The notes beneath the pieces were generated by a model. The model had not been told where the DNA came from. It worked only from the letters and a program-made list of their open reading frames with translations, and did not search any database. A DNA stretch of 64,000 nucleotides from Asticcacaulis endophyticus (GTDB lineage: Bacteria; Pseudomonadota; Alphaproteobacteria; Caulobacterales; Caulobacteraceae), in contig NZ_BMZB01000001.1 of the NCBI RefSeq assembly GCF_014652575.1, forward strand, positions 310,001 through 374,000, read 5' to 3'. A program made the position numbers and the translations under genes. Below are positions 46,227-49,655 of this stretch, in pieces; positions within the stretch are counted from its first letter, which is position 1, and every line of letters begins with the position of its first letter.

Positions 46227-46745
46227 TCAAGCGGCCTTCTTTTCTTCCCAGCCGCTATCAAATAGCCCGAACTGGGCCTGAGCGTTACTAAGTTCGTCCA
46301 TAGAGTCCAACTCTTCGAGCTTAGACGTGATTAAATTTAGAACAGTATCTCCCTCACCGTCCGTCAACGCAAGGAAGAGTATCCTTAGAAGTTTCTCAGC
46401 AGCGCCTGGCATCTCGGTGTCGCCCTTTTCCCACCTAGCCACTGACTGGCTGGTTGTTCCAAGTAACGCCGCCAGCTCGCCTTGCGTTAAACCTAGGGTA
46501 TTACGTAAAAAACGTGTCTCCTTAGGAGTAAGGCCTTTTCGGTGGCAGACAATATGCCTCCCAATCGCCTTGTGAAGACCGTCCACATTCTTGATAGCTA
46601 CGGTGCGCTCACCGTCATACTCGGATATTTCATAACCGTTTAATAGATAGATGCCTTCTAAGCCCGCTGTTCTGTAGTGATAGGGTTCATCGTTAATTGC
46701 CTCGTTCCCAAAGCAAAAATGTTGTGGTTTCACATGTCTTCCCAT
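46227..46745 (-). CDS. HTH antitoxin (MqsA/HigA class)
   Basis: This 172-residue protein has residues about 90-145 carrying an XRE-type helix-turn-helix: LTPKETRFLRNTLGLTQGEL, then AALLGTTSQSVARWEKGD. The N-terminal part should bind the toxin. The order toxin-antitoxin with a 16-nt overlap is that of MqsRA and HigBA systems. It should repress the palindrome at 47070-47088. The frame is open to 46844 but ATG 46745 fits the overlap. Confidence 0.78.
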   Translation of the reverse strand: MGRHVKPQHFCFGNEAINDEPYHYRTAGLEGIYLLNGYEISEYDGERTVAIKNVDGLHKAIGRHIVCHRKGLTPKETRFLRNTLGLTQGELAALLGTTSQSVARWEKGDTEMPGAAEKLLRILFLALTDGEGDTVLNLITSKLEELDSMDELSNAQAQFGLFDSGWEEKKAA

Positions 46746-47068
46746 TCTACCGTTTTGATGACAAGTCGCCCCAACTGAGAGACGACTGTAACGACCCCCA
46801 CTTCTCGGCTGGCCCGCTTTCGCGCGACGACCTTGCATTTCCATTCTCCATTGCTTCTGCCAGGTTCAATGTCTCCAATAATATCCCCGGTTCGCAGAAC
46901 CAGCAGTGCGTCCGGGGTAGTGATGTCCCGCAATTCCATCCTTTCAAGCGCATGCTCTGTAAAAGCCACATTCGAAGAATCCGAAGCCAGCGACCTGATT
47001 GTGGTCAGGAGTTGCTGAGGTTTCGGCTTGAATACGGCGACAGACGCGCCTAATCGGTTACGTGTCAT
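46730..47068 (-). CDS. DUF4258-type toxin
   Basis: This 112-residue protein includes AFTEHALERMELRDITTPDA and CKVVARKRASREVGVVTVVS, the DUF4258 pattern related to RelE/MqsR mRNA-cutting toxins. It is first in the operon. ATG 47068 is directly beside the 19-bp operator, so repressor binding would also cover the translation start region. A GTG at 47071 is an alternative. Confidence 0.72.
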   Translation of the reverse strand: MTRNRLGASVAVFKPKPQQLLTTIRSLASDSSNVAFTEHALERMELRDITTPDALLVLRTGDIIGDIEPGRSNGEWKCKVVARKRASREVGVVTVVSQLGRLVIKTVEWEDM

Positions 47069-47069
47069 C

Positions 47070-47088
47070 ACCTATCATTATGATAGGT
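47070..47088. promoter_or_regulatory. Operator of the toxin-antitoxin operon
   Basis: ACCTATCATTATGATAGGT is a perfect 9-bp inverted repeat around one central base. It starts one base upstream of the toxin ATG. Antitoxins of this class bind ACCT...AGGT palindromes. Confidence 0.7.
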
Positions 47089-47129
47089 ACGGGTTAATGT
47101 CAAATGAATAAGGAAGATGCATCGGAATA

Positions 47130-47170
47130 ACAAAATAAAATAAAATAAGGCCGGGGCGTTAACCCCGGCC
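47130..47170 (-). terminator. Terminator of the structured RNA
   Basis: GGCCGGGG (47170-47163 on the minus strand) pairs perfectly with CCCCGGCC (47156-47149) around a 6-nt loop and is followed by TTATTTTATTTTATTTTG. Confidence 0.85.
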
Positions 47171-47875
47171 CTACCTACATCGGGTCATGACTCCCGATGG
47201 CCTGTTGTCAGGTCTTAAACACCAAACCGTTTCCAGTTCAGTAACTCCACCGCCTAAAGCGAAGGATAGGTTTTGATCTGGCAGGGCTTGATACCTGCTC
47301 CATATTCTGTCGCCTGCTATATAGACCCTTTCGGGGAACGCCCAGCGTGGACACGGTCGGTTGCGTTTCCTTCAACGCCGCAGATCAATCTTGTTTAGCC
47401 CGAAGGCTGAAACTTAGTTGCTTACCCTAGGCCCTCAGTTATTCCCCGGCTTGGAGGGCTCCGCGGGACTCTTTCGAGTTTCTGTGCATTTCAGCACTTC
47501 GTCAGCCGCATAGCGCCGGGCTAGATGTTCCCTTGTCAGGTAAGCCGGGGAACCCACGGCTTAGTTGCCATTTCTGGCGAAACTTAAAGAGCCTTTTTGT
47601 GCCATGCTCAGGGCGCTATATGGGGCCGAAGGGTAACGGCGGATTTTCTTCCCATAAGGCTGATCGAAGGGCGAACCTTCAAGTCATCAATCCCTATTTG
47701 TGTGAACCGAGGCCGCTACACCAGACCGGTTCACCATCATGACTTCCCTCACCTCGCGGCAAAGGCCCCTCATGTATTTCTCCGGCGAATTACCCCGCGC
47801 CGGATCGGGTTATTTCTCCCATCGACTCAATGTAGGGTCGAGGTCGGCACAACCACGGGAGAAGATTAATGAGTG
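47140..47875 (-). ncRNA. Large structured noncoding RNA candidate (about 730 nt)
   Basis: No gene fits this interval, but the minus strand folds into many local and nested helices. From the 5' end (plus coordinates): 47857-47863/47814-47820; 47798-47804/47781-47787; 47739-47745/47681-47687 enclosing 47727-47734/47702-47709; 47676-47680/47666-47670; 47557-47563/47541-47547; 47515-47520/47445-47450 enclosing 47506-47509/47463-47466 and two hairpins; 47193-47199/47178-47184; then the terminator. Four hairpins have GAAA loops (47567-47578, 47468-47479, 47326-47335, 47225-47238) and one has cUUCGg (47397-47408), all only on this strand. A TTGCAA/TATGCG promoter (47909-47882) would start it near 47875. 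Size and prophage setting recall ROOL or GOLLD RNAs. Confidence 0.75.
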
Positions 47876-48147
47876 AATCGACGCATAAAATCCTCTGTAA
47901 CGCTTGCAAGGTGGAGCTTAAAGGCCTCGCTGACACCGACCCGCAGCTTTACGGATGCCCCGTCTGCGGGATCAGCGACACACGAGATAACGTCATGCGG
48001 GAAGCTACTGAGTACACTAAAGAAATGATTGCGCGCGACTTCCAAGACAGCGTCAGGAATACCGCCCGGAAAAGCAAACTGCTTAAGTTCAGCGGCAAGC
48101 CCATCCCACATGGCGTCTATAGATTTATTACAGACTACAAGGGATAG
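47869..48147 (+). CDS. Small zinc-ribbon protein
   Basis: This 92-residue protein has a CNAC and CPVC pair (residues about 10-34) forming a zinc ribbon, followed by a charged helix (MREATEYTKEMIARDFQDSV) and a basic tail. GGGAGAAG lies 5 nt before ATG 47869. It diverges from the structured RNA, whose inferred 5' end overlaps the start of this gene. An open minus-strand frame here is a shadow. A plus-strand terminator follows. Confidence 0.68.
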   Translation: MSESTHKILCNACKVELKGLADTDPQLYGCPVCGISDTRDNVMREATEYTKEMIARDFQDSVRNTARKSKLLKFSGKPIPHGVYRFITDYKG

Positions 48148-48200: not shown

Positions 48201-48244
48201 CATACCCCCTTTATGCCACGGGTTGGCGGCGTCGTCAAAAGAAA

Positions 48245-48294
48245 TTACGATTTGTCGTAACTTTGTTGTTGCGTGTTACGATTTTTCGTAATAT
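48245..48294 (+). promoter_or_regulatory. Rightward early promoter with two repressor operators
   Basis: TTACGATTTGTCGTAA (48245-48260) and TTACGATTTTTCGTAA (48276-48291) match the immunity-region operator. The second lies between TTGTTG (48266-48271) and TAATAT (48289-48294), 17 nt apart, with the same offset to the -10 as in the leftward promoter. Transcription would start near 48301. Confidence 0.7.
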
Positions 48295-48324
48295 TGTCAT
48301 CCCATCAACAGGGATACGACGACG

Positions 48325-48752: not shown

Positions 48753-49655
48753 GTGGCCGAAGAAAAAACCATCAACCGCTCGTTTCTGGCTATGTTGGCC
48801 AGTAATCAGACTGGCGCCCTCAGATCGGCTGGCTACAGCTTGTCCGACCTCATATCGGCTGGCTACAGCGCGTCCGCCCTCATATCGGCTGGCTACAGCG
48901 CGTCCGCCCTCAGATCGGCTGGCTACAGCTTGTCCGACCTCATATCGGCTGGCTACAGCGCGTCCGCCCTCAGATCGGCTGGCTACAGCGCGTCCGCCCT
49001 CAGATCGGCTGGCTACAGCGCGTCCGCCCTCAGATCGGCTGGCTACAGCTTGTCCGACCTCATATCGGCTGGCTACAGCGCGTCCGCCCTCAGATCGGCT
49101 GGCTACAGCTTGTCCGCCCTCAGATCGGCTGGCTACAGCGCGTCCGACCTCATATCGGCTGGCTACAGCTTGTCCGCCCTCAGATCGGCTGGCTACAGCG
49201 CGTCCGACCTCATATCGGCTGGCTACAGCTTGTCCGACCTCATATCGGCTGGCTACAGCGCGTCCGCCCTCAGATCGGCTGGCTACAGCTTGTCCGACCT
49301 TGACGCGCTAGAGGCTGAAATTCCTCTGGTAGAAAAGCCATACACGCAGCTTTGGAATGACATCCAGGCTAAAAAGCGAGCTTTCGATCAGGGCACATTC
49401 GGCCCATTTGAACGCGCACCTGAAAAGAACATTTGCGGCTCGCCTATGTGCACAGCCGGTCACCTCGTTCACATGGGTGGCGAGGCCGGATACGCGCTCA
49501 AGGCCAAATATGGTTGGGCCAAGGCTGGCGCACTGATCCACTTTAAAGCGCATCCCGATTGGCCGTGCCAGAACTTCGGTACGATCCCCGATGCGTGGGC
49601 CTTGGCTTACATAGAAGAGATGGCCGAGCGTGAAGCATCTGAGGTCCCCGCATGA
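48753..49655 (+). CDS. Decapeptide-repeat protein
   Basis: This 300-residue protein starts at GTG 48753 directly behind the previous stop. Residues about 22-182 are 16 copies of a ten-residue unit of form SAGYS(A/L)S(A/D)L(R/I). The rest (about 185-300) is a unique domain with CGSPMCTAGHLVHMGGEAGY and HPDWPCQNFGTIPDAWALAY. The repeat would form a solenoid-like rod. The unique domain has a conserved-looking Cys/His set. Function unknown; its place is early after infection. Confidence 0.8.
   Translation: MAEEKTINRSFLAMLASNQTGALRSAGYSLSDLISAGYSASALISAGYSASALRSAGYSLSDLISAGYSASALRSAGYSASALRSAGYSASALRSAGYSLSDLISAGYSASALRSAGYSLSALRSAGYSASDLISAGYSLSALRSAGYSASDLISAGYSLSDLISAGYSASALRSAGYSLSDLDALEAEIPLVEKPYTQLWNDIQAKKRAFDQGTFGPFERAPEKNICGSPMCTAGHLVHMGGEAGYALKAKYGWAKAGALIHFKAHPDWPCQNFGTIPDAWALAYIEEMAEREASEVPA
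48816..49300 (+). repeat. 30-bp tandem repeat array within the decapeptide-repeat gene
   Basis: Sixteen units of 30 bp share the constant core TCGGCTGGCTACAGC. They vary at only four base positions (GCG or TTG, GCC or GAC, AGA or ATA). All variable positions change the amino acid. The array length is a multiple of three, so copy changes keep the frame. Confidence 0.95.

Follow-up and report, generated by a model that had tools for sequence, protein, structure and literature searches.

Evidence for a new class of phage-borne RNA with two interlaced pseudoknots and, in most members, a predicted hammerhead ribozyme

The minus strand at positions 47419-47559 of the window, the 64,000-nucleotide stretch of Asticcacaulis endophyticus DNA analysed here, almost certainly carries the core of an RNA class that has no Rfam 15 family and for which no description was found in the open-access literature, an earlier description elsewhere being possible. 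In this class, h1 crosses h2 and h3 crosses h4 to give two interlaced pseudoknots, with the layout N-CGUGG-h1-CAG-h2-UGACAN-h1'-AUCUGG-h3-(insert)-N-CGUGGA-h4-CNN-h3'-GAAUAACU-h4'-CUAG-h2'-CA. The conserved unit spans ~95-145 nt across the class (~140 nt in the window), as compared with the 730 nt proposed earlier. The features assigned in the window are as follows, in the direction of transcription.

47560-47875, minus strand: 5' segment of the 730-nt RNA proposed earlier, structure by prediction only
47515-47559, minus strand: half 1 of the core (half-1 model R2, 59.5 bits); N (47559) and CGUGG; h1, 47553-47548 with 47532-47527; h2 5' strand, 47544-47539; UGACAA; AUCUAG; h3 5' strand, 47520-47515
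47467-47514, minus strand: predicted hammerhead core between the halves, assigned by sequence, by the core common to 75 recognised cases and by folding of the segment into three stems; stem I 5' strand GCGG, 47509-47506; CUGACGA, 47505-47499; stem II, 47498-47483, with a closing A-A mismatch; GAAA, 47482-47479; stem III, 47478-47469; UC, 47468-47467; predicted cleavage at 47467/47466
47419-47466, minus strand: half 2 of the core (half-2 model R3, 65.7 bits); N (47466) and CGCGGA; h4, 47459-47454 with 47436-47431; h3', 47450-47445; GAAUAACU; CUAG; h2', 47426-47421, extended by 47420
47269-47390, minus strand: tentative tRNA-like piece, with a ~8-bp outer stem, a hairpin with a UGAAGGAA loop and the T-arm-like hairpin GCAGGUAUCAAGCCCUGC
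47143-47176, minus strand: intrinsic terminator, its hairpin a 93% match to an alphaproteobacterial terminator-like site (L002)
46227-47071, minus strand: neighbour outside the RNA, a toxin-antitoxin-like pair (DUF4258 protein, 46730-47071; MqsA-like HTH protein, 46227-46844)

The minus-strand RNA of the window

The initial annotation described 47140-47875 as a gene-free stretch folding on one strand only into a single large RNA. A convincing gene was indeed absent from 47140-47865, and the intrinsic terminator was located on the minus strand at 47176-47143. The minus strand also legibly carries the GAAA loops and the cUUCGg hairpin (AGCCUUCGGGCU) reported for it, and its predicted structure (-284.5 kcal/mol as compared with -257.5 kcal/mol for dinucleotide shuffles; z -3.2) was better than that of 20 out of 20 shuffles. 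However, folding is not confined to one strand, as the plus strand (z -4.8) is at least as striking. Since both strands fold, folding energy cannot pick the strand, and it was rejected as a strand test. The assignment to the minus strand was nevertheless borne out by the relatives described below, as those with an adjoining promoter-like box or tRNA are all in the same sense. Neither the hammerhead core nor the pseudoknots formed part of the earlier description, the latter being features that nested folding programs are unable to show.

The single 730-nt RNA was supported only in part. Evolutionary comparison supports 47419-47559 and, less strongly, 47269-47390 and the terminator, whereas no relatives of the first ~315 nt (47560-47875) were found. 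There was no clear candidate for a minus-strand promoter near 47875, and an ORF that runs rightward from 47869 has a ribosome-binding site. The 47560-47875 segment may be the promoter region of this ORF rather than RNA. The structured minus-strand RNA in the window is real, though conserved only in part, and its 3' end is likely the terminator at 47143-47176.

The assignment of 47269-47390 as a tRNA-like piece is tentative, as it draws on few sequences. The T-arm-like hairpin recurs unchanged in a tRNA of phage DSS3P8, and L132, L159 and Alcaligenes phage QDWS595 have a similar layout. In L159, the core sits between the two hairpins of the piece, while QDWS595 has the piece without the core. 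Overall, this second RNA piece, with UGAAGGAA and GGUAUCAAGCC loops, was seen in the window, L132, L159 and L193, with the core present or absent.

Other features were noted nearby. The toxin-antitoxin-like pair adjoins the window copy. A 9-nt direct repeat, GCAACTAAG, lies on both sides of the conserved core (47413-47421 and 47560-47568, minus strand) and may be either a duplication or a coincidence. On the plus strand, repeated TTACGAnnnTCGTAA-like sites at 48220-48310, upstream of rightward genes, are probably repressor operators, and 48753-49655 encodes a protein with a long decapeptide-repeat region (PF25296) specified by near-identical 30-nt DNA repeats.

No Rfam 15 family matched 47060-47920 at the gathering threshold, and at E<=10 the stretch gave only sub-threshold terminator-hairpin look-alikes and other noise. 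Membership of GOLLD or ROOL, raised in the initial annotation, was thus not supported, the stretch matching neither the GOLLD covariance model (RF02032, gathering 150 bits) nor that of ROOL (RF03087, gathering 99.1 bits), with a positive control that covered GOLLD only. The GOLLD result is informative, as the same library detected GOLLD (150.7 bits) in Roseobacter phage DSS3P8, which also indicates that alphaproteobacterial phages do carry this RNA. The DSS3P8 match lies in an unannotated, gene-free stretch of ~2.1 kb that contains the GOLLD RNA and an alphaproteobacterial/permuted tmRNA match (L192, 705-1138 and 1309-1695). No description of the class under study was found in the open-access full text covered by the search.

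Relatives and architecture of the core

A sensitive BLASTN search of 50,697 phage records returned as its sole match a 134-nt piece (73-76% identity) in Arthrobacter phages Karkharias and Constance and Mycobacterium phage Gaia, in which the copies directly adjoin tRNA genes or tRNA-like sequence. Exact-pattern scans derived from this alignment gave well over 100 IMG/VR contigs among the matches listed. BLAST with relatives as queries added Microcystis phage Mwe-JY26, M. abscessus prophages, Enterobacter phage SDFMU_EhYP, Pectobacterium phages Pappous and Taid, and Dickeya phage Setonix. In total, at least 117 distinct members were collected from alphaproteobacterial, actinobacterial, cyanobacterial and enterobacterial phages, and prophage copies were present in 15 of 5,426 complete E. 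coli genomes. Across 84,980 GTDB genomes, no more than two contigs matched the first pattern, suggesting that the element is carried mostly by phages. The plasmids searched gave no match, and among host genomes of the same family and order the element was found only in the window's own genome. BLAST matches of query positions 500-536 in seven host relatives were rejected as chance, as they fall inside a peroxiredoxin-like coding gene, and other short same-family matches were terminator look-alikes (L002), with L009 covering the same query positions.

Each member consists of two homologous halves of ~45 nt, both starting with NCGUGG (half 1 consensus NCGUGG-GUYCCC-CAG-...-UGACAU-GGRRAC-AUCUGG; half 2 consensus NCGUGGA-GUCCUC-CCA-...-AAUAACU-GAGGAC-CUAGG). 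Each half forms a 6-bp hairpin, the loop of which pairs with the tail of the other half (h2 and h3), so that the pair of halves amounts to two H-type pseudoknots with their second stems swapped. Selection of the 117 elements required at least 5 of 6 pairs in h1, h3 and h4, which inflates percentages for these helices; the N base, the long-range pair and h2 were never criteria. The N preceding CGUGG is identical between the halves in 114 of 117 elements (C in 56, G in 44 and U in 14), as compared with 39% for non-cognate halves. A long-range pair between position 4 of the half 1 CGUGG box and position 7 of GAAUAACU is G-C or U-A in all 117 (non-cognate, 80%), and h2 has at least 6 bp in 97% of elements but in 22% of non-cognate halves. 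In 17 elements, half 2 comes first and every helix is retained. This permuted order was confirmed with the half models in L038, and the half-2-first layout was read in L078 and L079. In L157, two adjacent elements with different N bases and different long-range pairs are each self-consistent. The N identity, the long-range pair and the 17 permutations together indicate that the halves are true modules, and, as judged by the sequences, either half may stand first in the gene.

The possibility that the two N bases are identical because both pair with the hammerhead strand was rejected, as the identity persists in members without a hammerhead. Pairing of the half 1 N with a downstream ACGN' was likewise dismissed (24 of 100 elements, 16 expected). 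Outer stems of 8 bp or more occurred in 22 of 100 elements, as compared with about 0.6 expected. At a pseudo-dyad, the two N bases are probably in contact with each other and may form a symmetric homopair. To our knowledge, no other RNA displays covariation of two distant bases by identity rather than complementarity.

A pseudoknotted model of 30 pairs, comprising h1-h4, hammerhead stem I and one long-range pair, was evaluated on 38 aligned sequences. In these, 97.8% of the modelled pairs are formed, falling to 36-47% when the partner strand is slid. Double-change cells numbered 162 as compared with 37 after shuffling, with the observed values reached in 0 of 500 shuffles, and 23 of the 30 pairs changed on both sides. 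A covariance model with part of the pairs recovered pattern matches outside its building set. The window copy scored 128.7 bits with the full-core model R1 and conforms to the class definition, having C at both N positions, G-C at the long-range pair (X4-Z7) and all helices. The outcome expected of a new class in the initial annotation was therefore obtained, namely a phage-borne RNA without an Rfam family and with covarying pairs in its relatives. From these comparisons, there is very little doubt that the members form a new RNA class with the predicted pseudoknotted secondary structure.

The embedded hammerhead and the genomic setting

In about two thirds of members, half 2 is immediately preceded by a type I hammerhead core, with 75 recognised automatically and that of L111 by eye; none was seen 5' of half 1 among the collected elements. 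The remaining third, most of which have a linker of 1-5 nt, keep all other features. The predicted cleavage falls exactly before the N of half 2. The CUGANGA/GAAA/UH core is present in 74 of the 75 recognised hammerheads, and in the sole variant, UUGAUAA in Gaia, C3 and G8 are jointly changed to U and A, as would preserve the known pair between these positions. Stem I covaries in the 38-sequence model. The closing position of stem II, 10.1-11.1, is G-C in 39, A-A in 24, U-U in 8, C-A in 3 and A-G in 1 of the 75.

The window copy includes the catalytic core C3U4G5A6N7G8A9/G12A13A14A15.1/U16.1H17 and three stems, with A-A at 10.1-11.1, where a pair served as a filter in Perreault et al. 2011. 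No Rfam hammerhead match was reported for this copy even at E<=10, and the best hammerhead score, HH9 for L039 (E 0.094), was below the cut-off. In that survey, candidates mispaired at 10.1-11.1 were discarded unless activity had been measured (PMC3088659), which may explain why this set of hammerheads escaped notice. The hammerhead is likely to be active in most carriers, and activity of the window copy is somewhat favoured.

Of the 117 elements, 39 have same-strand tRNAs at a distance of up to 1.5 kb, and none had only antisense tRNAs nearby. Several tRNA genes end exactly at the start of half 1, as in L027, where tRNA-Ser occupies 245-330 and the core 331-477, and in L038 a tRNA-Leu lies ahead of half 2 in the usual place of the hammerhead. 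A -10-like hexamer was found 4-9 nt upstream of half 1 in 7 of 91 elements (about 1 expected). In E. coli A35, the element (L195, 5001-5196) is located between a Q-type antitermination gene and a holin gene, where lambdoid phages have their late leader, and in strain 2017.17.01CC it accompanies a Gp49 gene in the opposite sense to the portal and terminase genes, like a moron. On viral contig L051, ARAGORN called 34 genes within about 9 kb, most of them tRNAs and one a tmRNA, with the new element among them.

Possible roles and comparison with known systems

Taken together, the element is likely to be a self-processed phage RNA of the following kind. The hammerhead 5' of half 2 would cleave itself to leave the 5' end of half 2 at its N base, and an abutting tRNA gene or promoter would set the 5' end of half 1 at the equivalent base. 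After the cut, the halves would be held together via h2 and h3 as a compact RNA of pseudo-two-fold symmetry. Expressed alongside tRNA arrays or late transcripts, it would act in trans in the lytic phase by binding a partner from the host or the phage, and in the window copy the core would be joined to the tRNA-like piece and the terminator. The chances of a trans-acting role in the lytic phase are about even. Since about a third of members lack the hammerhead, cleavage would not be essential to the class, and the neighbouring genes are too variable to point to one partner. A bolder reading, put forward tentatively and at somewhat less than even probability, is that the fold is a fused 'dimer' of homologous, domain-swapped pseudoknots, permutable and nicked by the hammerhead, with a central C-C, G-G or U-U contact, acting in trans with or against a host partner conserved among the distant hosts of these phages.

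The best-placed alternative, though unlikely, is that the element insulates by processing, cutting polycistronic phage transcripts such as tRNA arrays and late mRNAs, with the role of the pseudoknots limited to holding or tuning the hammerhead. Perreault et al. 2011 proposed a processing role for prophage hammerheads (PMC3088659), and both the position of the hammerheads immediately 5' of half 2 and the tRNAs abutting many copies would suit it. However, the members that keep every other feature without a hammerhead argue against a mere processing insulator, the cut ends in the common order would still be bridged through h2 and h3, and the core is conserved far beyond the need of such a role.

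A cis-acting leader, whether a riboswitch-like or an antitermination element for a downstream gene, is rather less probable. Pseudo-symmetric folds are able to bind symmetric ligands, which would fit such a leader, an ORF begins 25-250 nt downstream of some copies, and the copy in E. coli A35 occupies the place of a late leader. The variable neighbours, together with the window copy's own terminator, argue against this reading: no shared downstream gene was apparent, as judged from positions, and downstream of many copies come tRNAs or ORFs on the opposite strand.

Slightly less probable again is a new self-cleaving class, in which the double-pseudoknot core would cut 5' of each NCGUGG, the hammerhead being a later replacement at one site. 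The ends set exactly 5' of N by tRNA ends, promoter-like boxes and hammerheads are consistent with this, and theta ribozymes provide a precedent for tRNA-linked phage ribozymes (PMC10879173). However, no catalytic site was identified in the core, its helix order is unlike that of HDV-like ribozymes, and promoter-driven copies need no cut at the half 1 N. That the element belongs to, or is a fragment of, a giant cage-forming RNA such as GOLLD, which occurs near tRNAs and is induced on lysis (PMC12286853), or ROOL is highly improbable, as the similar niche (phage-borne, near tRNA islands, with a tRNA-like piece and ~700 nt in the window) is outweighed by the lack of an Rfam match at E<=10 with a library that detects GOLLD in DSS3P8, by the conserved unit of ~95-145 nt and by the absence of the 700-nt context from most members.

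New, widespread structured RNA classes with strong covariation seldom appear, and the architecture of this one is unusual in combining internal duplication, domain-swapped pseudoknots, natural circular permutation and an embedded hammerhead. The N identity rule points to a tertiary contact that can be tested, the class supplies a defined molecular setting for bacterial hammerheads, and the prophage copies open it to experiment in E. coli.

Among known systems, GOLLD (RF02032) is likewise a phage-borne ornate RNA near tRNA islands, whereas the new class has a far smaller conserved unit, a hammerhead and permuted forms, and leaves the GOLLD model unmatched. ROOL (RF03087) occupies a similar phage niche, but its model is unmatched and its size and layout are unrelated. 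The helix order of the new class is h1 h2 h1' h3 h4 h3' h4' h2', and that of HDV-like ribozymes is P1 P2 P3 P3' P1' P4 P4' P2'. An HDV-like or theta ribozyme was accordingly rejected, as the helix order does not fit the nested double pseudoknot P1-P4 and an Rfam match is absent. The class does share with theta and other HDV-like ribozymes its occurrence as a tRNA-linked phage RNA with two interlaced pseudoknots (PMC10879173). The VIPR vrRNAs are also small phage RNAs, and in one type hammerheads are interspersed in arrays (PMC13142463), but they were ruled out, since the new class has neither GGY/NN tandem repeats nor an array. With type I hammerheads (Rfam clan CL00010), the class shares the CUGANGA, GAAA and UH core and the three stems, with stems II and III closed. 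It differs from them in placing the ribozyme inside a larger conserved RNA whose two halves flank it, in a stem I of 3-4 bp that is shared with half 2, and in a 10.1-11.1 position that is often unpaired.
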